A stretch of 64,000 nucleotides of DNA from Longispora fulva (GTDB taxonomy: Bacteria > Actinomycetota > Actinomycetes > Mycobacteriales > Micromonosporaceae): contig NZ_JADOUF010000001.1 of the NCBI RefSeq assembly GCF_015751905.1, positions 6,200,001 to 6,264,000 on the forward strand, in the 5' to 3' direction. Below the pieces are notes generated by a model. That model worked only from the letters and a program-made list of their open reading frames with translations. It had not been told where the DNA came from and searched no databases. Both the position numbers and the translations under genes were made by a program. This document shows, piece by piece, positions 43,608-58,249 of the stretch. Each line of letters begins with the position of its first letter. Position 1 is the stretch's first letter.

Positions 43608-43645
43608 TTACTTCCCGGTAACTTAAGTATATTACCTGGGAGTAG
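43608..43645. promoter_or_regulatory. paired palindromic operators at the acyl-CoA dehydrogenase promoter
   Basis: TTACTTCCCGGTAA (43608-43621) and TTACCTGGGAGTAG (43632-43645) share a TTAC-N6-GTA(A/G) core. They flank a TATACT -10 hexamer on the minus strand (43631-43626). Together they form one larger imperfect inverted repeat. The same core occurs at the EtfD-like gene (53979-53992). Confidence 0.7.
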
Positions 43646-43666
43646 CCTCATCCCGGGGAGTATTCG

Positions 43667-43682
43667 TGTGATGCGCATCACA
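43667..43682. promoter_or_regulatory. perfect CRP/GlxR-type binding site
   Basis: TGTGATGCGCATCACA is a perfect 16-bp palindrome and an exact match to the CRP/GlxR consensus TGTGA-N6-TCACA. It lies between the acyl-CoA dehydrogenase (start 43575, minus) and the plus-strand micropeptide unit (43786). Confidence 0.75.
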
Positions 43683-43785
43683 GTTATTCGAGGGTGACGG
43701 CAACCCGACAGAGCGTCACCCATTGACGGGAGTGCTCGTTTCCTACTCAAACACGGTGACATGAGTCGATCGGGAGGCGAGCGAG

Positions 43786-43845
43786 ATGCTGAAGAGAATG
43801 AAGCGCATCTTCACTGGGCGCTACCGCGGCCGCCACCGCGCATAG
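43786..43845 (+). CDS. candidate micropeptide (19 aa, very basic)
   Basis: The predicted 19-residue peptide is MLKRMKRIFTGRYRGRHRA, with 9 Lys/Arg/His among 19 residues. GGGAGGCGAGCGAG before the ATG contains a good ribosome binding site (GGAGG, 8-9 nt spacing). A -35-like TTGACG lies at 43723-43728, but the -10 box is unclear. A true intrinsic terminator starts 20 nt after the stop, so a short transcript of about 150 nt is likely. It may be a coding mRNA, a regulatory RNA or both. An inverted repeat, GGGTGACG (43692-43699) with CGTCACCC (43714-43721), lies just upstream. Confidence 0.45.
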   Translation: MLKRMKRIFTGRYRGRHRA

Positions 43846-43864
43846 CGCGCTGGGGGGAAACAGA

Positions 43865-43896
43865 GGGGTCCGGGCTACGCCACCCGGGCCCCTTTT
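43865..43896 (+). terminator. intrinsic terminator of the micropeptide/sRNA unit
   Basis: A 10-bp stem (43865-43874 with 43883-43892, one G-U pair) is followed by TTTT on the plus strand. It cannot serve the convergent minus-strand gene, which ends further right. Confidence 0.85.
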
Positions 43897-43981
43897 CCAC
43901 ATCGCGAGCGGGCCACCAGCACCGGCACGGCAGGTCCCGGCACCGCCCGCCCCGGGTGCCGCACGCTCTCGCGCGTGACGC

Positions 43982-45088
43982 CTAGTTCTCCCCGACCGCC
44001 CAGCTCGGCGTCGCGGGCTCCACCGGCGGCCGGGTCGCCGTGTACTCCAGCAGCACCATCGCGATGTCGTCGTCCAGCACCCCGTGCACCCAGTCGAGCA
44101 GCGCCGTCTCCAGCGAGGCCAGCCCGTCGGCGACCGTGCCGTGCCCGAGCAGGCCCCACGCGCGCTCCTGGATCGGGAAGAACTCCCCGGCCCGGCGCGC
44201 CTCGGTCAGGCCGTCGGTGTACAGCAGCAGCCGGTCGCCCGGCTCCAGCCGCTCGACCCGGGGCGGCGGGGCCGGCATGAAGCCCAGCGGCGGCGCGGGG
44301 GCCGGCGGGTCCAGTGAGATGACCTGGCCCCGGCGGAGCAGCAGCGGCGGCGGGTGGCCGCAGTTGACCACCGTCAGGGTGCCGCCGCGCTCCTCGATGA
44401 CGGCGGCGGTGACGAAGTCCTCGTAGCCGACGGAACGGGAGACGGCGCGGTCCAGGTCGGAGACGATGGCGCGCAGGTCGGAGCGCTCGTACGCGACGTG
44501 GCGGTAGGAGCCGAGCACGCCGCTGGCCAGTCGGACGGCCTCCAGGCCCTTGCCCCGGACGTCGCCGATCAGCAGCCGGGTGCCGTACGGGGTGTCGAGG
44601 GCCTCGTACAGGTCGCCGCCGATGTCGGCCTCGGCGCTCGCGGAGACGTACCGGCCGGAGATCGCCAGGTTGCCGGACTGGGGGCCGATCGGGCGCAGGA
44701 TCGCCTGCTGGGCGACCGAGGCCAGGTGGGTCAGCGTCGCGAGCTGTTCGAGCTGCCGGCCGCGGAACCGGGCGACCCCGATCCCGATCCCGGTGCTCAG
44801 GCACACCGCGAACAGCTGGATCATGACCGCGGCGTGCCACTGGTCCGGCGTCGGCGCGACGGCGAAGGCGACGCCGACCCCGACGCAGGCCGCCCCGGTG
44901 ATCAGGACGGAGCGCCAGCCGGCGAACGCCGCGGCGAGGAGCGGCGGCAGGGAGAGCAGGCCGAGATAGTCCGGCCTCGGGCCGTCGGCGATCTCGATGA
45001 TGATGATCAAGGCAAGCAGCACAAATGCCGCACCCAGACCGGCGCGTGCCTCCGGTCTGGGTGTGCGACGGGTCTGCTGCAGTGACAT
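43982..45088 (-). CDS. membrane PP2C/SpoIIE-type protein phosphatase
   Basis: This 368-aa protein has four or five N-terminal membrane helices (about 18-120) and a C-terminal PP2C/SpoIIE phosphatase domain. Motifs are AEADIGGDLYEA (metal-binding Asp), IGDVRGKGLEAVRLA, VNCGHPPPLLL, LLYTDGLTEAR and LDDDIAMVLL. Such enzymes typically dephosphorylate anti-anti-sigma factors. No partner kinase or STAS protein is in the window. The start is the ATG at 45088. It lies 86 nt downstream of the RlpA-like gene in the same direction. Confidence 0.9.
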   Translation of the reverse strand: MSLQQTRRTPRPEARAGLGAAFVLLALIIIIEIADGPRPDYLGLLSLPPLLAAAFAGWRSVLITGAACVGVGVAFAVAPTPDQWHAAVMIQLFAVCLSTGIGIGVARFRGRQLEQLATLTHLASVAQQAILRPIGPQSGNLAISGRYVSASAEADIGGDLYEALDTPYGTRLLIGDVRGKGLEAVRLASGVLGSYRHVAYERSDLRAIVSDLDRAVSRSVGYEDFVTAAVIEERGGTLTVVNCGHPPPLLLRRGQVISLDPPAPAPPLGFMPAPPPRVERLEPGDRLLLYTDGLTEARRAGEFFPIQERAWGLLGHGTVADGLASLETALLDWVHGVLDDDIAMVLLEYTATRPPVEPATPSWAVGEN

Positions 45089-45174
45089 AGCCTCTCCGCG
45101 GCGAGGAACGTGGTCTCAGCATGCCTCGCTGAAGCGGGCACCAGAAGAGCTTTCTGGTCAGACCCGCCGGACGT

Positions 45175-45813
45175 TCAGCCCAATATTTCCCACTTGGCTG
45201 ATTTCAGTACACCCTGGGACTTCGGTGCGATCGCTCCGAATGCCCCGGCGGAGAGGTCAATGCACCGATCTCCGGAGTACGGACCCCGGTCGGTGATCCG
45301 CACGATGACCGACTTGCCGTTGGCCGGATTGGTGATCCGGACCTTCGTGTTGAACGGCAGCGACCGGTGGGCCGCGGTCATCGCGTTCGGGTCGAACTTC
45401 TCGCCGTTGGCCGTGGTGCCGCCGTCGAAACCGTCGCCGTCGCCGTAGTACGACATGGCGCAGCTGCCGGAGCTCGTCACGCCCGCCGGCGGAACGGCCT
45501 TCGTGGTCTTCGGCGCCACCGGCTTCGGGGTCGGACTGGCGGAGGGCGAGGGGCTGGCCGACGGGGAGGCCGAGGGGGACGGCGAAGGCGAGGCCGACTC
45601 GCTCGGCCGCTGGGCGCGGTCGGCGCGCTCGGCGATCTCGCGGGACGAGGAGGCGTTCGTGGTGGCCGGGGAGGATGTCAACTGGACGGTGGCGAAGCCG
45701 ACGCCGACCAGGATTCCCAGGACCGCCGTGCCGGTGATGATCTGCAACCGGCGCGACTGGAAGAGCGGGTTCTTAGGAGCTGGGTCTTCTTTTACGGCTT
45801 GGTGGCCGGTCAA
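45175..45813 (-). CDS. RlpA-like double-psi beta-barrel protein with membrane anchor
   Basis: This protein of about 212 aa has one N-terminal membrane helix (about residues 25-47), a Ser/Pro-rich linker with SPSPSPSASPS-type repeats, and a C-terminal RlpA-like domain (CAMSYYGDGDGFDGGTTANGE, FNTKVRITNPANGKSVIVRITDRGPY, DLSAGAFGAI). It probably acts on peptidoglycan outside the cell. The TTG at 45813 is preferred because GGGAAGG lies 9 nt before it. A GTG at 45858, without a binding site, would add 15 residues. Confidence 0.8.
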   Translation of the reverse strand: MTGHQAVKEDPAPKNPLFQSRRLQIITGTAVLGILVGVGFATVQLTSSPATTNASSSREIAERADRAQRPSESASPSPSPSASPSASPSPSASPTPKPVAPKTTKAVPPAGVTSSGSCAMSYYGDGDGFDGGTTANGEKFDPNAMTAAHRSLPFNTKVRITNPANGKSVIVRITDRGPYSGDRCIDLSAGAFGAIAPKSQGVLKSAKWEILG

Positions 45814-45997
45814 GAGGTGAACCTTCCCTAGACGACAGGACCTGGCGACCGTAGACACACAGTCACCAGTAGCTCAACTGGACGGACCCCAATTTGGTAA
45901 CCTTGTCCGGTTAAATAGCTGGTCGGGCCGGGGGTGGGGTCGGCTGATCGGCCCAGTGATTACTACCCTTAGTCGTATTTGGTGCACAATTTGCTAC

Positions 45998-46732
45998 GTG
46001 CACTTCAGACACCTCGCGGCCGCTGCCGGCCTGCTGCTCGTCGCCCTGAGCTCGGGTTCCGCCGTGGCCGAGGGGGATTCCTGGGTGCCGATCGCGGAGT
46101 ACCGGATCAATGTGGCCACCGCCGACACCGACGGTGACGGGCTGACCCTCAAGGACGCCAGCGGGCACGGCCACGACCTGTCGACGCACACCGCCAGGGG
46201 CGGTGCGATCACGCTGCTCCGCGACGGCGACCGGCCCCGGCTGCGGTTCCCCGCGCCGTGCACCGGCTCGTGCCCGCACGCGATCCTGGAGGGCGGGACC
46301 GTGGCCGAGGACCTCAACCCCGGAGCGCGTCGAATCAGGTTCGGCGCGACGTTGCGGATGTCGCCCGACGAGACGACCGAGGGTTCCAACGTCCTGCAGA
46401 AGGGGTACTCCCTGGAAGGCAGCCAGTACAAGCTGCAGGTGGACGGCTTCGAGGGCCACCCGAGTTGCGTACTCGTCGGATCGGGTCCGATCTGGCTCGT
46501 CTACTCCCGGGTCGGCGTCGCGGACAGCCGCTGGCACGACGTGCTGTGCGAGCGGGACGGCGGGGAGCTGACCATCTCGGTGGACGGCGCGGTCACCGGC
46601 CGGATCGACGTGCCGGAGCACCTGAGCGTCACGAACGACGAGCCGCTCCGGCTGGGCGGCAAGGGGACCAGCGCGAACAACGACCAGTTCTCCGGGGAAC
46701 TGGCCGCGGCGTTCGTGTCGGTGGCGGACTAG
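45998..46732 (+). CDS. secreted LamG/concanavalin-A-like protein
   Basis: This 244-aa protein has a signal peptide (VHFRHLAAAAGLLLVALSSGSAVA, starting at the GTG at 45998). The mature domain is a jelly-roll of the LamG/concanavalin A type. Segments such as YRINVATADTDGDGLTLKDASGHGHDL, LQKGYSLEGSQYKLQVD and LTISVDGAVTGRI are typical. Two cysteine pairs are visible. It probably binds a polysaccharide or glycan outside the cell; no catalytic residues were seen. It ends 4 nt from the convergent dcd stop. Confidence 0.75.
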   Translation: MHFRHLAAAAGLLLVALSSGSAVAEGDSWVPIAEYRINVATADTDGDGLTLKDASGHGHDLSTHTARGGAITLLRDGDRPRLRFPAPCTGSCPHAILEGGTVAEDLNPGARRIRFGATLRMSPDETTEGSNVLQKGYSLEGSQYKLQVDGFEGHPSCVLVGSGPIWLVYSRVGVADSRWHDVLCERDGGELTISVDGAVTGRIDVPEHLSVTNDEPLRLGGKGTSANNDQFSGELAAAFVSVAD

Positions 46733-46736
46733 CCGG

Positions 46737-47315
46737 TCAGCTCGTCGACCAGGTGCGCCAGTTCTTCCACGACCGGCTCGGGGTCGGGCCGCGCTGGCCC
46801 TGGTAGCGCGAGCCGTAGATCTCCGAGCCGTACGGGTGCTCCGACGGGCTGGACAGCTTGAAGATGCACAGCTGGCCGATCTTCATCCCCGGCCACAGCT
46901 TGATCGGCAGGTTGGCCACGTTGGACAGCTCCAGCGTGACGTGCCCGGAGAAGCCCGGGTCGATGAACCCGGCCGTGGAGTGGGTGAGCAGCCCCAGCCG
47001 GCCGAGGCTCGACTTGCCCTCCAGCCGCCCGGCCAGGTCGTCGGGCAGTGTGACGGCCTCCAGGGTGCTGCCGAGGACGAACTCCCCCGGGTGCAGCACG
47101 AACGGCTTGCCGTCCTCCACCTCGACCAGCTCGGTCAGCTCGTCCTGCTGGATCGCCGGGTCGATATGGGTGTACTTGTGGTTGTTGAACACCCGGAACA
47201 TCCGGTCCAGGCGCACGTCGATGCTGGACGGCTGGACGAGGGCCGGCTCGAACGGCTCCAGGCCCATGCGGCCGGACTTGAGCTCGGACACCAGGTCGCG
47301 GTCGGAGAGCAGCAT
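46737..47315 (-). CDS. dcd: dCTP deaminase
   Basis: This enzyme deaminates dCTP to dUTP (or directly to dUMP in bifunctional forms) for thymidylate synthesis. The 192-aa protein has the dUTPase-like fold, with [43 protein letters not shown] and the C-terminal nucleotide-covering tail [14 protein letters not shown]. The start is the ATG at 47315, with a TACCCT box 7 nt upstream (leaderless). Its upstream region holds an 11-bp inverted repeat and an SOS-box-like site. Confidence 0.95.
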
Positions 47316-47340
47316 GAGGTCGAGGGTAGTCGGGCCGGCC

Positions 47341-47383
47341 GTGCCGCCGGCATCCACCCATTGGCACGAGTGGCCGGCGGCAC
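47341..47383. repeat. 11-bp inverted repeat between dcd and the PNPOx gene
   Basis: GTGCCGCCGGC (47341-47351) and GCCGGCGGCAC (47373-47383) are perfect reverse complements with a 21-nt spacer. It could form a hairpin in the divergent promoter region or be an operator. Confidence 0.7.
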
Positions 47384-47411
47384 GGGCGCGAGCAGGGTGT
47401 CGCTGTGCGCG

Positions 47412-47427
47412 TAGAACACATGTTCGA
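47412..47427. promoter_or_regulatory. SOS-box-like (LexA) site
   Basis: TAGAACACATGTTCGA matches the actinobacterial LexA consensus TCGAAC-N4-GTTCGA except for one base. It touches the TAGAAT -10 box (47428-47433) of the PNPOx gene, and lies about 100 bp upstream of dcd on the other strand. Confidence 0.5.
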
Positions 47428-47439
47428 TAGAATGTGCCC

Positions 47440-47919
47440 ATGACCACGTGGTCCCAGTTCTCCGCGTCCGATCCCGCGCTCGCCGCCTCGATCGCCGCCC
47501 TGCTGCACCAGTACGGGCCAGGAATGGCCTACCTCGCCACCGTCCGCCCCGACGGCGGCCCCCGCCTGCACCCGGTCTCCCCCGTCATCACCGACGAAGG
47601 GCTCTACTGCTTCCTGGTCGACTCCCCGAAACGCCGCGACCTCGAGCGCGACGGCCGCTACGCCCTGCACTCCTACCCGTCCGAGGAGGTCGACGACGAG
47701 GCGTATCTGACCGGCGTGGCCACTCCGGTGCTCGACGTGCCGCTGATGCGTCGGCTGGCGTCCACGTACGACGCCGCGCCGCACGGCAACTGGAAGCTCT
47801 TCGAGTTCACGGTGGAGGTGGCGATGCTGGCGACGTACCGGAGCCGGGGCGGTTGGCCTCCGGAGTACCGGTCGTGGCGGGCCCAGGAAAGCGGAAGAGT
47901 GGCGGATCGGGTACAGTAG
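47440..47919 (+). CDS. pyridoxamine 5'-phosphate oxidase-like flavin-binding protein
   Basis: This protein of about 159 aa has the split-barrel FMN-binding fold of the PNPOx-like family. Visible are [20 protein letters not shown], the flavin-binding [15 protein letters not shown], and [13 protein letters not shown]. Many relatives bind F420, haem or FMN and are not true PNPOx, so the substrate is open. The ATG at 47440 lies 6 nt after a TAGAAT box (leaderless). A GTG at 47434 is in frame. tRNA-Gly follows 8 nt after the stop. Confidence 0.85.
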
Positions 47920-47927
47920 CTCCGCTG

Positions 47928-48001
47928 GCGGGTGTAGCTCAATGGCAGAGTTTCTGCTTCCCAAGCAGACGGCGCGGGTTCGATTCCCGTCACCCGCTCC
48001 A
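47928..48001 (+). tRNA. tRNA-Gly (anticodon CCC), CCA encoded
   Basis: This 74-nt cloverleaf has a 7-bp acceptor stem (GCGGGTG with CACCCGC), an anticodon stem TCTGC/GCAGA with loop TTCCCAA (anticodon CCC), and a T-arm GCGGG-TTCGATT-CCCGT. The 3' CCA is genome-encoded. It sits 8 nt after the PNPOx-like gene and is followed at once by a terminator, so it could be read from the same transcript. Confidence 0.96.
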
Positions 48002-48005
48002 CGTG

Positions 48006-48035
48006 AAAGGCCCCGACCAGTTGGTCGGGGCCTTT
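48006..48035 (+). terminator. intrinsic terminator after tRNA-Gly
   Basis: A perfect 14-bp stem (48006-48019 with 48022-48035) begins 4 nt after the tRNA CCA. The right arm ends in CCTTT. Confidence 0.9.
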
Positions 48036-48122
48036 ACCCGTCGGACCGGCGGCCTCGTCAGGCCCGGGTCGCATCGCAGGTCGCAGCGCCTTGGGGGGAA
48101 TCCGCTGTGACCGGCCGGGCGA

Positions 48123-48293
48123 TTACTTCTTGCGCTTCTTCGCGGAGGACTGCGACGCACCGGCCGACACGGACTCGCGTAAGGCGTGCCTGCCCGGCTT
48201 CGTGTTCAGGTCTTCGTACTCGGGGCCGTATGCCGAGCTGTCGGAGTCGGCGAACGCGTCGCCTCCCGGACCGATGTAGCTGTGCTTGCCCAT
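48123..48293 (-). CDS. small hypothetical protein (56 aa)
   Basis: This 56-aa protein has an acidic, Gly/Ser/Asp-rich middle (GGDAFADSDSSAYGPEYEDL) and a very basic tail ending KKRKK. It has no membrane helix or domain I recognise. GGAGGTCACG directly precedes the ATG at 48293, a strong ribosome binding site. It is probably real and disordered. It lies between the tRNA terminator and the DUF1707 gene. Confidence 0.6.
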   Translation of the reverse strand: MGKHSYIGPGGDAFADSDSSAYGPEYEDLNTKPGRHALRESVSAGASQSSAKKRKK

Positions 48294-48412
48294 CGTGACC
48301 TCCGCGGGGTTCGGAACGGAATCTCCTAGAGAGTGCCAGAGCCGGCGACTCCAGGTAACCCCCAAATTCCTTTGCGTGACAACTACCGACGAAAGTCGGA
48401 GCGGGGGTTGAC

Positions 48413-49015
48413 TTATCTGCCGAGGAGCTCTCGGGCCCATCGGGGCAGAACGCCCTTCTTCTCCAGGCCGGCGCTGCGCACCTTCACGTCGCCCATGACC
48501 ACGGTCAGGTGGATCCGGATGGTCGGCGTGCCGGGCAGCTTCGGCACCGGGGCCAGCTTGAGGCTGCGCTCGCCCATGATGACCGAGCCGTACAGCTCGA
48601 CGTCGACGCCCTCGGGCACCGTGATGGTCAGCTCGCCCATCACACAGGTGCCCTTGATGTCCACGACCCCGTCGGACAGCGCCTCCTGGCTCAGCGCCAC
48701 CTCGCACAGGTCGAGCTTCATGTCGCCCATCAGGACGAAGATCTTCAGGTACCGCGAGAGGTTCCACCGGCCGGACCTGTGGTTCTCGCCCATGATGGTG
48801 CGGATGTTGGTCTCGGCGACCGAGCGGGACTCCCCGACGATGGGCTGGCGCATGGCCACCACACCGTCGAGCGCCTTGACCAGCTCCTCGTGCTCGTCGG
48901 CAGCCCACACCGCGCCCACCCGGACGCTGAACTCCTCGAGACTGATCCGGCCTTCGCCGCAGGCTCGCTGCAGCGCCTCCGCCGCCGGTGCGCGTTCGAG
49001 ATCAGTGATGCCCAT
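48413..49015 (-). CDS. DUF1707 domain protein with LiaF-like beta domain
   Basis: This 200-aa protein has an N-terminal DUF1707 domain (SHOCT-like: LERAPAAEALQRACGEGRISLEEFSVRVGAVWAA) and a C-terminal repetitive beta domain of LiaF/DUF2154 type (VVDIKGTCVMGELTITVPEGVDVELYGSVIMGE). MGE/MGD motifs recur about every 20-30 residues. It is probably a membrane-stress-related cytoplasmic protein. The start is the ATG at 49015, 7 nt after a TACCGT box (leaderless). Confidence 0.85.
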   Translation of the reverse strand: MGITDLERAPAAEALQRACGEGRISLEEFSVRVGAVWAADEHEELVKALDGVVAMRQPIVGESRSVAETNIRTIMGENHRSGRWNLSRYLKIFVLMGDMKLDLCEVALSQEALSDGVVDIKGTCVMGELTITVPEGVDVELYGSVIMGERSLKLAPVPKLPGTPTIRIHLTVVMGDVKVRSAGLEKKGVLPRWARELLGR

Positions 49016-49070
49016 GCGGGGAACGGTACGCACGGTGGCATCGTGACGTCAACATGATGTCAGCGATCCG

Positions 49071-50063
49071 CTACGCGGAGATCGTGGGGTGGGTGCCGAC
49101 CACGGCGTTCAGGACGTCGTCCAGCGTCACTATGCCCAGCGGCCGGCCACCGTCGGCGACGAGCACGATGTGCCGGTGCTCGCGGCGCATCTGCAGGAGC
49201 AGCTCCGCGAGCGTGACGCCCGGGGCGACCAGGGGCAGCGGGCGCAGCATCGGCGGGCTGGACACTCCCAGCACGTCCTTGACGTGCACGAACCCGAGCA
49301 CCTCGCCGGCATCGTCCACCACCGGGAACCGGGACCGGCGGGTCCTGGTGGCCAGCGGCTCCAGCTCGGCCGCCGTGATCGACGGCTCGACGGAGACCAC
49401 CTGTGACCAGGTCCGCATCGCGTCGGCGGCGGTGCGCTGGTGCAGCGCGAGCGCGCCGGTGATCCTGGCATGCTCCTCGGCGTCGAGCAGGCCCTCGGTC
49501 CGCGACTCGGCGACGAGGCCCGCGAGCTCCTCGGCGGTGTAGATGGTCTTCACGGCGTCGGCGGCCTCGATCCGCCAGATCCGCAGCACCTGACGCGCCG
49601 CCCACTTCAGCGCCACCAGCAGCGGCTTGAGAGCCAGGCAGAACACCAGCATCGGCGGGCCGAGCCACATCACGGCCTGCTCGGGGCCGGCGAGCGTGAT
49701 GTTCTTCGGCACCATCTCGCCGAGGATCGTGTGCAGGAAGACCACGACGACCAGAGCCAGAACGAAAGCCGTCGGGTGTACGGCGTTGTCCGGCAGCCCC
49801 ACCGCGTCGAACGGCGACTCCAGCAGATGGGCCAGGGCCGGCTCGGCGACGGCGCCCAGGCCGAGCGAGCAGATCGTCACGCCCAGCTGCGCGCCGGCGA
49901 TCATCAGCGGGAGCTGCCGCATGGCCGACAGCGCCCACCTGGCCACCCGGGACTTCTCCGCCATCGGTTCGAGCATCGTGCTCCGCGAGGCGATCAGCGC
50001 GAACTCCGCAGCGACGAAGAACGCGTTGCCCACCAGCAGGATCACGGTCAGCAGGAGGTTCAC
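49071..50063 (-). CDS. CNNM/HlyC-CorC family membrane protein with CBS domains (second of pair)
   Basis: This 330-aa protein has a CNNM-type membrane domain of three to four helices (1 to about 160, with FFVAAEFALIASRSTM and LGEMVPKNITLAGPE), then a CBS pair (about 200-330, SRFPVVDDAGEVLGFVHVKDV and HIVLVADGGRPLGIVTLDDVL). It lacks the C-terminal transporter-associated domain. The family is proposed to transport or sense divalent cations such as Mg2+. The start overlaps the stop of the longer paralogue (GTGA), so they are probably made together as a pair. Confidence 0.9.
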   Translation of the reverse strand: MNLLLTVILLVGNAFFVAAEFALIASRSTMLEPMAEKSRVARWALSAMRQLPLMIAGAQLGVTICSLGLGAVAEPALAHLLESPFDAVGLPDNAVHPTAFVLALVVVVFLHTILGEMVPKNITLAGPEQAVMWLGPPMLVFCLALKPLLVALKWAARQVLRIWRIEAADAVKTIYTAEELAGLVAESRTEGLLDAEEHARITGALALHQRTAADAMRTWSQVVSVEPSITAAELEPLATRTRRSRFPVVDDAGEVLGFVHVKDVLGVSSPPMLRPLPLVAPGVTLAELLLQMRREHRHIVLVADGGRPLGIVTLDDVLNAVVGTHPTISA

Positions 50064-51346
50064 GCTTCCTCGCCGTCCTCGTCCTCGGAGGCCGGTGGGT
50101 GCACCTTGACCTGTTCGATGCGGTGCTTGTCCATCTCGGTGACCGTGAACTCCCAGCCCTCGTACTCGACGCGCTCGCCGACCTGGGGGAGGTGGCCGAG
50201 TTGGGCGAGGAGGAAGCCGGCCAGCGTCTCGTACGGGCCGTCGGGGAGGGTGAAACCGGTCTGCTCCTGGACCTCGTCCTCGCGGAGCACGCCGGAGACG
50301 GTCTCGGAGACCACCGGGGCGGCCAGCTCGCGCCGGTCGTGCTCGTCGACGATCTCGCCGACCAGCTCCTCGACCAGGTCCTCGATGGTGACGACGCCGT
50401 CGGTGCCGCCGTACTCGTCGACGACGATCGCGAGGTCGGAGTCGCCGCGCCGCAGCTCGTCGAGGACGGCGTCGAGGTCGAGGGACTCGGGGACGAAGAC
50501 CGGCTCGCGGGCGACGTTGCGGACCCGGACGAAGGCGCGGTGTGCCGGGTCGATCGCCAGGGCGTCGGCGATGGTGGCGACACCGACGACCTGGTCGAGG
50601 GTGTCCACGTACACCGGGAATCTGCTTCTGCCCGTCTCCCGGACCCGGTTGATCATGTCGGCGACCGTGGCGTCTGCGGCCAGGGCCACGACGTCGACCC
50701 GGGGGGTCATCGCCTCGGCTGCCCGCTTGTCCCCGAACCGGATCGTCCGGCGGAGCAACGCCGCCGTCTCCGAGTCCATCGCGCCGGCTTTGGCCGACAT
50801 GGCCACCAGCAGACCCAGCTCCTCGGGTGAGCGGGCGCTGGCCAGCTCCTCCTGGGGTTCGATGCCGAGCCGGCGGACCAGGAAGTTCGCCGAGCCGTTC
50901 AGGATCCGGATCAGCCAGCCGAAGACCCGCGAGAACTGCCGCTGGCCGGCGGCGGTGGCCCGGGCGATCGGCATCGGCTTGGCCAGCGCGGCGTTCTTCG
51001 GGACCAGCTCGCCGAACAGCATCGAGAACAGGGTCGCGATGCCCAGGGCGACGCCGGTGGCGACCCCGTCGTTGCTGATCACCGGGTGGATCAGGTGGGC
51101 GATGGCCGGCTTGGCGAGATACCCGCTGAGCAGCGCGGTGATCGTGATCCCGAGCTGCGCGCCCGACAACTGGAACGAGAGGTTCCGCAGCGCCTTCTGC
51201 ACGGTCTTCGACTTGCGGTCGCCGGCGGCGGCCTGCTGCTCGATGAGGCCCCGGTCGACCGTCACGAGCGAGAACTCTGCGGCAACGAAGAACGCACTTC
51301 CAACCGTGAGCAGCACAAAAGCGACTAACGGCAGTAGATCGCCCAC
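50060..51346 (-). CDS. CNNM/HlyC-CorC family membrane protein, full length (first of pair)
   Basis: This 428-aa protein has the CNNM membrane domain (FFVAAEFSLVTVDR, FGELVPKNAALAKP), a CBS pair (SRFPVYVDTLDQVVGVATIADA, DLAIVVDEYGGTDGVVTIEDL) and the CorC_HlyC C-terminal domain (LPDGPYETLAGFLLAQLGHLPQVGERVEYEGWEFTV). It is the longer and probably ancestral partner of the shorter gene downstream, and the two overlap by 4 nt. A role in Mg2+ or other ion homeostasis is likely. Confidence 0.92.
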   Translation of the reverse strand: MGDLLPLVAFVLLTVGSAFFVAAEFSLVTVDRGLIEQQAAAGDRKSKTVQKALRNLSFQLSGAQLGITITALLSGYLAKPAIAHLIHPVISNDGVATGVALGIATLFSMLFGELVPKNAALAKPMPIARATAAGQRQFSRVFGWLIRILNGSANFLVRRLGIEPQEELASARSPEELGLLVAMSAKAGAMDSETAALLRRTIRFGDKRAAEAMTPRVDVVALAADATVADMINRVRETGRSRFPVYVDTLDQVVGVATIADALAIDPAHRAFVRVRNVAREPVFVPESLDLDAVLDELRRGDSDLAIVVDEYGGTDGVVTIEDLVEELVGEIVDEHDRRELAAPVVSETVSGVLREDEVQEQTGFTLPDGPYETLAGFLLAQLGHLPQVGERVEYEGWEFTVTEMDKHRIEQVKVHPPASEDEDGEEA

Positions 51347-51385
51347 TGAATAATCACCCCTCGGAGGATGATCCTACCGGGAGCC

Positions 51386-51829
51386 TCAACCCGTGACCTT
51401 GAAGTCCTTGCGTGCGACCTCGGTGGCCGTCTGGCTTTCGATCCGGAACAACCGCAGCGTGTGCTCGCCGACCGGTAGCACGGCGTCCACCGAGCCGGAC
51501 TTCAGACAGCCGACGAGGTCGGTGAGCCCGGCGATCGGCGGGACGTCCGAGTCCGTCTTCGTGACGCTGATCTTCTGGTTCGCGTCGACGGCCAGCTCGG
51601 CCGCCCCGACGGTCACGGCGTAGCGACCCTCGGGGCCGGTGGCGGCCCAGTACACCTTAGTGCCCTTGGCGATCTGGTCGCCGAGCGTCGTCAGGGACGG
51701 CTTGACGCAGTCGGCGGCCGGCTTCCAGGTGTCGTGCTTGCGCGGCGTCAACAGGATCGCCGCGACGAGCACGAGGAAGACGCCCAGGAAGACGGCGTAC
51801 TTGGGACGCTTCAGATACTGGGGGATCAT
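51386..51829 (-). CDS. single-helix membrane-anchored protein downstream of the EtfD-like gene
   Basis: This 147-aa protein has one N-terminal membrane helix (about 12-32, KYAVFLGVFLVLVAAILLTP) and an external soluble domain with two cysteines (ADCVKPS and VGCLKSG). I do not recognise the domain. The ATG overlaps the EtfD-like stop (ATGA), so it is translationally coupled and may be an accessory subunit or assembly factor of that oxidoreductase. This role is inferred from coupling only. Confidence 0.75.
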   Translation of the reverse strand: MIPQYLKRPKYAVFLGVFLVLVAAILLTPRKHDTWKPAADCVKPSLTTLGDQIAKGTKVYWAATGPEGRYAVTVGAAELAVDANQKISVTKTDSDVPPIAGLTDLVGCLKSGSVDAVLPVGEHTLRLFRIESQTATEVARKDFKVTG

Positions 51830-53952
51830 GACGTCCTGATCGACCTGAGCAGCACCGTTGCCACGTCCACGACCTCCACCGTCTCGGCGGCGTCGCCGGA
51901 GGCCTTCTTTCCGGTCACGCCGTCGCCGAGCATAGTGAAGCAGAACGGGCAACCGACGGCGATGGTCTGCGCCCCGGTGGTCAGGGCCTCCTCGACCCGT
52001 TCGATGTTGATCCGCTTGCCGATCGTCTCTTCCATGTACATCCGCGCGCCGCCGGCCCCGCAGCAGAAGGACCGCTCGGTGTTGCGCGGCATCTCGGTCA
52101 GCTCGCCGGCCCCGAGCGCCGCACCGAGGACCTCGCGCGGCGGCGAGTAGACCTTGTTGTGCCGGCCCAGGTAGCACGGGTCGTGGTAGGTCAGGCCGCC
52201 CTCGATCGGCACCACCGGCTTGAGCTTGCCGGTGGAGACGAGGTGGCTGAGCAGCTCGGTGTGGTGCACGACCTCGAACCGGCCGCCGAACTCCGGGTAC
52301 TCGTTGCCGATCGTGTTGAAGCAGTGCGGGCAGGTCGCGACGATCTTCTTGACCCCGGCCTCGTTCAGCGTCTCGACGTTCTGCTGGGCGAGCATCTGGA
52401 ACAGGAACTCGTTGCCGATCCGGCGCGCCGGGTCACCGGTGCAGCCCTCGCCGTTGCCGAGGATCGCGTAGGACACGCCGGCCTCGTGCAGCAGGGTCGC
52501 GACGGCCCGGGTGGTCTTCTTGGCCTTGTCCTCCAGGGCGCCGGCGCAACCGACCCAGAACAGGTACTCGAACTCGGTCTCGCCGTCGACCCGGGGCACC
52601 TCGAAGTCGAGGCCCTTGGTCCAGTCCTCCCGGGAGTTGGGGTTCGCGCCCCACGGGTTGCCCTTGCTCTCCAGGTTCTTCAGCATGACGCCGGCCTCGC
52701 TGGGGAAGCTCGACTCGATCATCACCTGGTAGCGGCGCATGTCCACGATGTGGTCCACGTGCTCGATGTCGACGGGGCACTGCTCGACGCACGCGCCGCA
52801 CGTGGTGCACGACCACAGCACGTCGGGGTCGATGATGCCGCCCTCCTCCTCGGTGCCGACGAGCGGACGGCCGGCCTCCTTGAGCGAGGCGGCCAGCCCG
52901 AGGGCGTCGATCTTCGAGTGGTCGTCGGGGCTGCCGGCGAGCAGGTAGGGCGCCTTGGCGTACGCGTGGTCGCGCAGCGAGGTGATCAGCAGTTTCGGGG
53001 ACAGCGGCTTACCGGTGTTCCACGCCGGACACTGCGACTGGCAGCGCCCGCACTCGGTGCAGGTGCTGAAGTCGAGCAGGCCCTTCCAGCTGAACTCCTC
53101 GATCTTGGAGACGCCGAACAGGTCCTTGTCCGGGTCGGCCTCCTCGAAGTCCAGCGCCTTGCCGTCGGACATGACGGGCTTGAGCGCGCCGAGCGCGGTG
53201 CGCCCGTCGGCCTCCCGCTTGAAGAAGATGTTGAAGAACGCCGCGAACCGGTGCCAGGCCACGCCCATCGTGAGCTTCTGCGAGATCACGATGAAGAACA
53301 CCCAGGAGACAACGATCTTGATCAGGGCGACGATCGTGACGACCGTCAGGGCGCCCTTGGCGGGCAGCAGGTTGCCGATGCCGTGCGAGATCGGGGTGGC
53401 CCACACCGGGTAGTCGAAGTGGCCGGCCGCGTGCTTGAAGCCCCGGATCAGGAAGATGCAGACGCCGATCGCGGTGATGGTGAACTCGACGTAGTAAGCC
53501 TGGCCCATCGCCGAGCCCCGGAACCGCGACTGCGGCCGACGGCGGTGCACCTGGCGGATCACGATCAGGGTCACGATGCTGATGAGGAGCGCCGTCGCGA
53601 TGAACTCGATGAACAGCCCGTAGGGCGCCCAGCCGCCGATCAGCGGCAGCTCGAACTTCGGCTGTACCACCTCGCCGAACGCCTCGGCCAGGGTGAGCGC
53701 CAGGGTGCCGAAGCCGATGAAGACGAACCAGTGCGCGATGCCGACGGTCGTCCACTTCAGCATCCGGGTGTGCCCGAGGGTCTCCTTCAGCATGTTGGCG
53801 AGCCGCTGCGCGAAGGGCTTCGACCGGGTCGGGTCGGGCTGCCCGAGTTTTATGATCTTCACCATCGACCCGACAGAACGGGCAAACAGAGCAATTGCCA
53901 CCACGGTCACCAGGACCGCGAGGATCGTGGCCACGATCTGCGTGACTCCCAT
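51826..53952 (-). CDS. EtfD-like membrane Fe-S oxidoreductase (ETF to menaquinone)
   Basis: This 708-aa protein has an N-terminal membrane domain of about five helices similar to the nitrate reductase gamma/b-type cytochrome group. Two 4Fe-4S motifs follow (CTECGRCQSQCP and CTTCGACVEQCP, around residues 305 and 385). Two cysteine-rich CCG domains come next, with ATCPHCFN, YHDPCYLGRHN and SFCCGAGGARM. The layout matches Mycobacterium EtfD (Rv0338c type), which passes electrons from ETF, loaded by acyl-CoA dehydrogenases, to menaquinone. The TTAC-N6-GTAA operator upstream matches that of the acyl-CoA dehydrogenase gene. Confidence 0.9.
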   Translation of the reverse strand: MGVTQIVATILAVLVTVVAIALFARSVGSMVKIIKLGQPDPTRSKPFAQRLANMLKETLGHTRMLKWTTVGIAHWFVFIGFGTLALTLAEAFGEVVQPKFELPLIGGWAPYGLFIEFIATALLISIVTLIVIRQVHRRRPQSRFRGSAMGQAYYVEFTITAIGVCIFLIRGFKHAAGHFDYPVWATPISHGIGNLLPAKGALTVVTIVALIKIVVSWVFFIVISQKLTMGVAWHRFAAFFNIFFKREADGRTALGALKPVMSDGKALDFEEADPDKDLFGVSKIEEFSWKGLLDFSTCTECGRCQSQCPAWNTGKPLSPKLLITSLRDHAYAKAPYLLAGSPDDHSKIDALGLAASLKEAGRPLVGTEEEGGIIDPDVLWSCTTCGACVEQCPVDIEHVDHIVDMRRYQVMIESSFPSEAGVMLKNLESKGNPWGANPNSREDWTKGLDFEVPRVDGETEFEYLFWVGCAGALEDKAKKTTRAVATLLHEAGVSYAILGNGEGCTGDPARRIGNEFLFQMLAQQNVETLNEAGVKKIVATCPHCFNTIGNEYPEFGGRFEVVHHTELLSHLVSTGKLKPVVPIEGGLTYHDPCYLGRHNKVYSPPREVLGAALGAGELTEMPRNTERSFCCGAGGARMYMEETIGKRINIERVEEALTTGAQTIAVGCPFCFTMLGDGVTGKKASGDAAETVEVVDVATVLLRSIRTS

Positions 53953-53978
53953 GTGCTGCTCACCCTCCGCGCGACTTA

Positions 53979-53992
53979 TTACCCGCGAGTAA
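53979..53992. promoter_or_regulatory. palindromic operator upstream of the EtfD-like gene
   Basis: TTACCCGCGAGTAA has perfect TTAC/GTAA half sites with a 6-nt centre. It lies 27 nt before the ATG in the promoter region and has the same form as the sites at 43608-43645. Confidence 0.65.
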
Positions 53993-54097
53993 TATTAGCC
54001 ATCCCGGAGTCACCATAGCCGCCAGCGGGCCGGAAATTCCTCGCGACGCCCCCGTTCGGTACCGTCACCCCTGCTGAGCTGGGCCGTTGACCACCAC

Positions 54098-56695: not shown

Positions 56696-58249
56696 TTAGT
56701 AGACCCGGGAACCGATGAAGTCGCTGTGGTTGTAGCCGGCCGGGGTCGGGAAGTTGCGGGACTCCAGCGACCACTTCTGGGTGCCGTTGCAGGTCGCGAG
56801 GCGGGCCCATGAGCCGTTGGCGGTGCCGTCGAACGCCGCGCACAGGTCCGACCGGCTGGCCGGGTGGATGCCGTTGGCGTCGATGGTCCACTGCTGGTTG
56901 GTTCCGAGGTGGCAGTCCCACAGGATGAGCTTGGTGCCGACGGCGAGGGTGCCGCCGGAGGCGTCGACGCACCGGTCCTGGTTGAGTTCGATGTGCAGGG
57001 CCCTGGTGGCGGTGTCGTACCAGAAGCCCTGGTTGCGGCCGCCGTGGCAGGGCCAGGACAGCAGTTGGGTGGCGTAGCGCGAGTTGTAGGCCTCGGCGTC
57101 GAGGCACTGGCCGTTGGCGACGAGCTGCCGGAACTCGAACAGGCCCGGGTAGATCGTGCCGTGGTTGGTGTTGCCCGGGTCCACACAGGTCGCCGTCTGC
57201 AGGCCGGAGTTGTAGAAGGCGCTCATGCACTCGGCGAACGCGCCGTGCCCGCTGTAGTTCGGGTGCGCGGACTGGCGGGCGGCGTTCTCGTCGAAGATGT
57301 TGCCGTTCTCGATGTAGATGCCCCGGGCCCAGGGAGCCTCGGTGCACACCTCGTGGCCGTGGAAGAGCCGGCTGGCGTCGAGGTACATGACGCCGGTGTT
57401 CTGAGCGGCCTTGCGCTCGGCGGACTCGAAGATCGGCACGGCCTTGTTCCGGCCGAACGCCGCGTCGGCGAGGTAGATGGTGCAACCGCCGGCGTACCAG
57501 CCGGGGAAGTTGGGGTTGTCCTCGACGTCGGGGCTGATCGGGGACGGGTACCCCATCAGGGAGAGCTTGTAGTCACTGGCCAGGTAGCCGGCGTTCGTCA
57601 TGGTGGTCTTGATGCTGTTGACCGCCATCTCGACCTCCTGGCGGGTGTGCTCGGCCCGGGCGTTCCACGCGTCGGTGTACGTCGGCCAGCACACGCCCTG
57701 GAAGAAGATCCGCTTCTTGGCGCAGTCGGTGGCGACGGGGCCGAACTCGATGTTGCCCGAGCCGTTGGCACCGACGACCACCCAGACCAGCTTGATCTTC
57801 GTGTTGCGGGCCTTGATGGCGAGGTTGTCGCCCTGGTTGAGTTCCTGCCACTGGTGGGTGCCGCCGTAGACCAGGTCGGAGGGCTGGCCGCCAGAGCAGG
57901 CCACGTTGTAGCGCACGTCGACCGGGATGGTCAGCCGCCAGACGGCCTGGTCCACGGACCGGTCGCACCAGTTGCCGTCCTGGTGGGTGCCGGGCTCGTA
58001 GTTGCCGACTCCCTCACCCGAGATCTCGCTGTCGCCCATCGTGATCACGCCGGTCTTGCGCGAGTCGATGGGCTTGATGGCCGGGTTGCCGTAGAGGGCG
58101 GAGGCCTCGGTGGCGCGCTGCGCCTCGAGATTCGCCGGGAGGGGCTGGATGTCCGGGCGGGTGTCCACTGCGGCCTGACCGGGGGCGGCGAGGGCCGCTG
58201 CCGTCAGAAAGCCGACTGCGATCGCAGCCAGGCGGGGCTTGAGGCGCAT
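56696..58249 (-). CDS. secreted SGNH esterase with ricin-type lectin domain
   Basis: This 517-aa protein has a Sec signal peptide (1-27). The catalytic domain (about 60-365) is SGNH-type: GDSEISGEG (72-80, nucleophile Ser74), a VGANGSGN oxyanion segment (Asn162) and HPNYSGHG (His329). The C-terminal domain (about 370-500) is a ricin B beta-trefoil with three QxW-like repeats (NQGFW, NQQW, TQKW). It probably degrades an acetylated or lipid-ester polymer while bound to polysaccharide outside the cell. The start is the ATG at 58249. A TTAC-N6-GTAA palindrome lies 28 nt upstream. Confidence 0.9.
   Translation of the reverse strand: MRLKPRLAAIAVGFLTAAALAAPGQAAVDTRPDIQPLPANLEAQRATEASALYGNPAIKPIDSRKTGVITMGDSEISGEGVGNYEPGTHQDGNWCDRSVDQAVWRLTIPVDVRYNVACSGGQPSDLVYGGTHQWQELNQGDNLAIKARNTKIKLVWVVVGANGSGNIEFGPVATDCAKKRIFFQGVCWPTYTDAWNARAEHTRQEVEMAVNSIKTTMTNAGYLASDYKLSLMGYPSPISPDVEDNPNFPGWYAGGCTIYLADAAFGRNKAVPIFESAERKAAQNTGVMYLDASRLFHGHEVCTEAPWARGIYIENGNIFDENAARQSAHPNYSGHGAFAECMSAFYNSGLQTATCVDPGNTNHGTIYPGLFEFRQLVANGQCLDAEAYNSRYATQLLSWPCHGGRNQGFWYDTATRALHIELNQDRCVDASGGTLAVGTKLILWDCHLGTNQQWTIDANGIHPASRSDLCAAFDGTANGSWARLATCNGTQKWSLESRNFPTPAGYNHSDFIGSRVY

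Follow-up and report, generated by a model that had tools for sequence, protein, structure and literature searches.

The 64-kb stretch of Longispora fulva DNA analysed here (the window; positions G000:C1:6200001-6264000 of a genome, G000, that is represented by an 8.68-Mb single contig) carries genes for a FadE5-like acyl-CoA dehydrogenase and an EtfD-like membrane iron-sulfur oxidoreductase, each of which is preceded by a palindrome of the form TTAC-N6-GTAA (Table 1). A preliminary description of this DNA had placed two TTAC-N6-GTA(A/G) sites on either side of the -10 box of the FadE5-like gene, with a perfect palindrome of the same form in the promoter of the EtfD-like gene, and we found both arrangements as described, the sequence TATACT lying between the two FadE5 sites. 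Exactly three perfect sites were present in the window, compared with a mean of 0.03 in dinucleotide shuffles, of which none out of 100 reached three (maximum one); the expectation that such palindromes should be rare at this base composition was thus borne out. Relaxing GTAA to GTAR brought in the second FadE5 site and gave seven strand hits, corresponding to four distinct sites (shuffle mean 0.07). The two promoters originally reported do not exhaust the set, which includes a third perfect site in front of a gene for a secreted ricin-B-lectin protein and is larger than two genes. The products had been named as an acyl-CoA dehydrogenase and an EtfD-like electron carrier, with which their Pfam domains agree, the cysteine-rich CCG and 4Fe-4S domains of the latter being those expected for EtfD; no equivalog model named either protein in a comparison with NCBIfam, and both names express resemblance.

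Table 1. Palindromic operators, possible promoter elements and genes in the window, and the gene of the candidate regulator
Feature	Position	Strand	Remarks
FadE5-like acyl-CoA dehydrogenase, 612 aa	41737..43575	-	Pfam Acyl-CoA_dh domains
Perfect operator TTACTTCCCGGTAA, proximal, FadE5-like promoter	43608..43621	.	32 nt 5' of ATG
Possible -10 box TATACT	43626..43631	-	exactly between both FadE5 operators; by resemblance only
Second FadE5-promoter operator TTACCTGGGAGTAG, one outer mismatch	43632..43645	.	24 bp from the 43608-43621 site
EtfD-like membrane iron-sulfur oxidoreductase, 708 aa	51826..53952	-	Pfam cysteine-rich CCG and 4Fe-4S domains
Perfect operator TTACCCGCGAGTAA, EtfD-like promoter	53979..53992	.	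26 nt 5' of ATG
Possible -10 box TAATAT	53992..53997	-	abuts EtfD operator, 1 base overlap; by resemblance only
Secreted protein, ricin-B lectin domain and SGNH-hydrolase-like N-terminal part (by eye)	56696..58249	-	Pfam Ricin_B_lectin
Third perfect operator TTACCGCACGGTAA	58277..58290	.	27 nt 5' of secreted ricin-B-lectin protein gene
TetR-1, TetR-family protein	G000:C1:8498596-8499231 (L058:2597-3235)		candidate regulator; basis: operators in own promoter

Across the whole genome the perfect palindrome occurred at 20 places, against two for the reversed pattern, and TTACYNNNNRGTAR gave 30 forward and 24 reverse matches against 4 and 3, respectively, for its control. When the spacer was allowed to vary from 2 to 12 nucleotides, 49 places were recovered, among which N6 accounted for 20 and every other spacer for at most six (binomial p 3e-9 if all spacers are equally likely). 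The reversed control over the same spacers produced 63 places, so that it is only the N6 class that is enriched and not TTAC/GTAA pairs as such. For downstream analysis, 48 distinct places were pooled from the perfect-pattern and TTACYNNNNRGTAR searches, and genes at the sites were called with a small program that had learned codon usage from the window. A gene start lay within 250 nt of 42 of these sites, four were without one, and two fell inside open reading frames (ORFs), where inside means more than 30 nt from the ORF end (6 of 50 without this margin). The weaker pattern CTACYNRYNRGTAG was found 11 times against four for its control, and by this 30-nt criterion none of the 11 fell inside an ORF.

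The first genes downstream of the sites were enriched in acyl-CoA, beta-oxidation or ETF families, which made up 17 of 49 such genes and 2 of 40 random neighbouring genes by Pfam (Fisher p 0.0005), with labels that were given after the results were visible, not blind, and with short-chain dehydrogenases (SDRs) counted on both sides. The 49 were taken from 55 first genes by leaving out one that encodes 50 residues and five whose site has G or A at position 5, and both of the lipid-family control genes sit in operons whose lead gene has a site. The 17 comprise three thiolases, two acyl-CoA dehydrogenases, ETF beta, EtfD, a 3-hydroxyacyl-CoA dehydrogenase, a MaoC protein, an HpcH/HpaI lyase, an acyl-CoA mutase, a crotonyl-CoA carboxylase/reductase, an SCP2 protein, two SDR/FabG4-type reductases and two DUF4442 (probably hotdog) proteins. 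Scores exceeded the NCBIfam cut-offs for the crotonyl-CoA carboxylase/reductase (622 against 379 bits), the mutase domain (430 against 304), one thiolase (763 against 580), a FabG4-like protein (673 against 410) and a FadA2-like protein (791 against 539). The presence of crotonyl-CoA carboxylase/reductase, mutase, MaoC and lyase suggests that the ethylmalonyl-CoA route may form part of the regulon. A dispersed lipid-degradation regulon had been proposed in the preliminary description, together with a genome-wide search for enrichment at beta-oxidation genes; that enrichment is present, and sites also occur at the EtfD and FadE5 orthologues of other families (see below).

Genes for a GDSL lipase and a class-2 lipase likewise have sites, as do two more SGNH-like secreted proteins recognised by eye (the window gene starting at 58249 and one at L367). 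The 14 bases of TTACCGCACGGTAA recur identically at a second genomic locus, in front of a GDSL lipase gene (L019:5058-5071), and the remaining upstream sequences of these two secreted genes are not alike. At two loci, L024:2603 and L035:2617, an operator separates a gene with a PucR-type helix-turn-helix domain from a divergent secreted hydrolase gene. Operators also precede a DUF6230 gene (Pfam, L047:2706-3311) and a look-alike from another family (L198, by eye), which hints at a possible lipid role for the DUF6230 family.

The preliminary description had placed a TetR-type regulator outside the window, and in agreement with this a candidate, here called TetR-1, is encoded 2.25 Mb away with the operator in its own promoter. 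The gene is directly preceded by a pair of operators set 16 bp apart and is divergent from an SCP2/acyl-CoA dehydrogenase/FadD-like operon, and another site is found 3 kb away in a FabG4/FadA2 divergent promoter. Named genomes were scanned with an alignment of 19 TetR-1 proteins, and we kept the best 80 of 561 relatives, which are mostly from Micromonospora, Pseudonocardiaceae genera and Streptomyces, include many close kin and were grouped into families by us. Within this set the operator was present between -200 and +13 of TetR-1 in all 47 loci from outside the Streptomycetaceae, and six control palindromes were found in none of these 47 promoters and in at most two of the 33 from Streptomycetaceae. 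Tandem operators 16 bp apart occurred in 18 of the 47 loci and, with one core mismatch allowed, there were 64 offsets of 16, compared with a single one each of 15 and 20. Where a FadA2-like gene was recognised, a site lay no more than 300 nt upstream of it in 10/10 Streptomycetaceae and 13/35 other loci.

TetR-1 was also associated with site number in a 148-genome sample of the class. Its presence was taken as a match of at least 118 bits (30 genomes), the next matches scoring 106, 105 and 103 bits, so that the border is a choice. An excess of at least five perfect sites was seen in 23 of 28 TetR-1-positive and 16 of 118 TetR-1-negative genomes, a class-wide comparison that is not corrected for kinship and from which two genomes, G012 and G031, had been dropped beforehand. 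At L080:1353 (G031) and L081:1338 (G012) a hairpin repeat centred on TTACTGCGCAGTAA was noted around TetR-1; this repeat probably accounts for the 109 and 73 motif copies of G031 and G012, respectively, only the copies around TetR-1 having been inspected. Similar palindromes with a 5-base spacer were noted by eye upstream of some distant TetR-1 genes (L080, L082, L085, L088); some loci of families f13 and f35 show them.

Conservation at the two window genes was examined in 30 genomes picked from the same sample, 17 with TetR-1 and 13 without, in which orthologues of EtfD were found in 28 and of FadE5 in 29. A site was scored where [CT]TAC-N6-GTA[AG] with at least one outer end T or A occurred up to 300 nt upstream, and by this measure 21 of 26 EtfD and 28 of 30 FadE5 orthologue loci carried one, compared with no match in a stretch of equal size inside each of these 56 genes. 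The EtfD count excludes L113-L116, where the match stopped short of the protein start, as well as EtfD of G085 and G043, and uses an N-terminal piece for the locus in G139 and G122. Pairs of FadE5 sites 24-25 bp apart, like those of the window, were present at 7 of the 30 loci, other pairs being 21, 27, 27 and 59 bp apart.

TetR-1 matched TetR_N (PF00440, 65.1 bits, cut-off 24) and TetR_C_46 (PF21943, 95.3 bits, cut-off 27), and its AlphaFold2 model, with nine helices and a mean pLDDT (predicted local distance difference test score) of 89.8, has the all-helical fold and N-terminal helix-turn-helix of the family. Solved structures ranked against this model in the order 3f1b, FasR of Mycobacterium tuberculosis and FadR of Bacillus. 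The first of these, a TetR-like protein of Rhodococcus sp. RHA1 that was deposited without a function in the title, is the closest (167.8 bits, 48% identity, TMq 0.81) and probably represents a TetR-1 orthologue; we know of no operator for it. Bacillus FadR is a TetR-type regulator of fatty-acid degradation in which one repressor governs many beta-oxidation operons, the same logic as is proposed here, but its operator differs from TTAC-N6-GTAA and TetR-1 scores only 50 bits against the FadR model NF053878 (cut-off 200). The KstR and KstR2 proteins of the cholesterol regulons are TetR repressors, as TetR-1 is proposed to be, and control large, dispersed, lipid-catabolic regulons in actinomycetes; their operators also differ, and TetR-1 falls well below the models for KstR (NF033703, 35.5 bits, cut-off 280) and the mycofactocin regulator MftR (TIGR03968, 33.6 bits, cut-off 224.9). 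TetR-1 lies approximately 7-8 kb from FadE5 in two genomes from the same taxonomic order (G043 and G070), a spacing that fits what we take to be the order from Rv0238 to Rv0244c, and on this assumed synteny TetR-1 may correspond to Rv0238.

The nearest characterised relative of TetR-1 is FasR (81 and 78 bits; fold TMq 0.73-0.76), which resembles it as an acyl-CoA-sensing TetR protein, a property proposed for TetR-1, with an SKP-x-x-Y recognition helix; according to the entry titles, FasR and FadR were both solved with acyl-CoA. In contrast to the degradative set of TetR-1, FasR is described as an activator of the fas-acpS operon (PMC7382501), and TetR-1 scores 99.4 bits against the FasR model NF053731, where the cut-off is 330; a separate FasR-like gene is present in the genome that encodes TetR-1. 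Since acyl-CoAs of C16 and longer are described as releasing FasR from DNA (PMC7382501), long-chain acyl-CoA is the natural guess for a TetR-1 ligand. Rv0238 is listed among the five TetR regulators that every mycobacterium examined was found to share (PMC4482099). Two further actinomycete TetR regulators tied to lipid metabolism, MadR (Rv0472c) and SCO3201, have sites given as TCTGTGxxxxxxxGT (PMC8872791) and TGGCAGATTCTGCCA (PMC7324645), respectively, both unlike TTAC-N6-GTAA.

In L. fulva the predicted operator thus occurs both in the promoter of TetR-1 itself and in promoters of beta-oxidation genes, and several findings weigh against extending this picture to every genome and every site. 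An N6 operator was present upstream of TetR-1 in only 7 of 30 class-sample loci, a count that leaves out L080 and L081, whose sole match was the hairpin repeat, and in none of nine loci of family f17. Among the best 80 relatives only 5 of the 33 Streptomycetaceae TetR-1 promoters had the operator, which the other 28 lacked, and 7 of the 33 loci were without any operator. Several site-bearing genes in L. fulva have no clear lipid role, e.g. those for a malic enzyme, a GTPase and a thermolysin. Genomes scored as TetR-1-negative kept the operator as often as those with TetR-1, at EtfD in 9/10 loci (12/16 with TetR-1) and at FadE5 in 12/12 (16/18 with TetR-1), which means that TetR-1 is not the reader everywhere and that another protein must read the sites in these genomes. 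In three such genomes (G146, G117 and G061; 58 regions inspected by eye) the sites precede thiolases, etfB, acyl-CoA dehydrogenases, enoyl-CoA hydratases, FabG4/FadA2 and an acyl-CoA synthetase, together with other genes of no clear lipid role. The persistence of operators in TetR-1-negative genomes, of which G117 and G146 are single contigs, would also be expected if the regulon were real and read throughout by a different, more widely conserved protein, TetR-1 then being no more than a regulated gene or, in some lineages, a later partner, an explanation that we consider unlikely. A second TetR protein with a very conserved DNA-binding domain, TetR-2, is widespread (match with E<=1e-12 in 119 of 148 genomes, some of the matches FasR-like), and in G146 TTACTCGTCGGTAA lies upstream of a TetR-2 gene. 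However, TTACY-N4-RGTAR was found upstream in none of 28 other TetR-2 loci and none of nine FasR-like loci, and two of all these loci carry G-type variants; the palindromes near TetR-2 in L. fulva are of another type (TACGG-N4-CGTA-like), and no alternative regulator with its own operator was found near the sites of G061 or G117. TetR-2 (G000:C1:5662123) was accordingly rejected as a class-wide reader despite the site at the G146 copy, as were the FasR-like genes. A home-made DNA-binding-domain profile run on loci L089-L206 of genomes without TetR-1 detected no TetR gene just downstream of a site except for a TetR-2 copy at L168. As a separate observation, a desaturase-like gene that has TetR-2 behind it carries two palindromes of a different type upstream, CTACGGGACCGTAG and TTACGGTGGCGTAG, spaced 15 bp apart (L207:2059-2087), and this pair is possibly a second lipid switch.

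Two other explanations appear far less probable still. A KstR2-type TetR protein, whose gene and a short-chain dehydrogenase gene diverge from a common promoter in L. fulva (L055), has a TTAC-type site 17 nt from its start and might be thought to read the operator, a proposal to which we give very little credence. The same promoter (L055:2412-2473, between the TetR_C_24 TetR gene and the SDR gene) also holds ATCAAGCGCTTGCT, a KstR2-like palindrome that adjoins the TTAC-type site, and orthologues of this TetR (E<=1e-35) occur in just 32 of 148 genomes; the TTAC-type site is confined to L. fulva, neither it nor the KstR2-like site being present in any of 29 orthologue loci, and the protein was rejected as the reader. 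The palindrome ATCAAGCGCTTGCT fits what we presume to be the KstR2 site. It is similarly improbable that the shared palindromes reflect chance or base composition. The variable-spacer control is as frequent as the pattern itself, and unrelated genes lie downstream of some N6 sites whose fifth position is G or A, but the shuffles, the reversed patterns, the positions of the sites, their conservation at orthologues and the control palindromes all disagree with chance, which is refuted as a general explanation and may hold for individual sites.

Taken together, we consider it likely that TTACY-N4-RGTAA serves as the operator in a chromosome-wide regulon of fatty-acid degradation, whose likeliest reader in L. 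fulva is TetR-1, a putative repressor released by acyl-CoA, and TetR-1 is likewise the likely regulator in this lineage on the evidence of promoter sequences. We infer binding, repression and an acyl-CoA ligand for TetR-1 along the following lines. When acyl-CoA is absent a TetR-1 dimer would occupy the palindrome, over or next to the core promoter, and block RNA polymerase; long-chain acyl-CoA would cause TetR-1 to let go, and the beta-oxidation enzymes, ETF, EtfD and some enzymes of acetyl-CoA assimilation would then rise together. TetR-1 would also sit on its own promoter. A wider proposal, which we hold tentatively and at slightly less than even confidence, is that over much of the Actinomycetes TetR-1 could act as the general repressor of fatty-acid degradation, a functional counterpart of FadR that couples beta-oxidation, ETF/EtfD, the ethylmalonyl-CoA enzymes and secreted esterases, with an operator network older than its reader and some lineages having swapped the repressor and kept the sites.

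No paper on this operator was found in the open literature searched, motif spellings included, and fadE5, Rv0338 and regulon are among the terms that do not occur in a FasR paper (PMC7652896). A 2017 paper on beta-oxidation in Streptomyces states that neither signals nor genes for the regulation of fatty-acid catabolism had been described for these bacteria (PMC5539140). EtfD is reported to be essential for mycobacterial beta-oxidation, and iron (through IdeR) and peroxide are the sole influences on its transcription mentioned in the consulted part of that source (PMC8593149). TetR-type fatty-acid regulons are a known kind of system; the breadth of this one is unusual, and through its sites a repressor probably turns fat degradation on and off in many actinomycetes. 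If correct, our reading would supply a predicted regulon for actinomycete fatty-acid catabolism, together with its operator and a named candidate for its repressor, and would account for the coordination of acyl-CoA dehydrogenase and ETF with the membrane carrier EtfD. Because oil-storing actinomycetes are used in biotechnology, such a switch for fat breakdown would also be of practical value.

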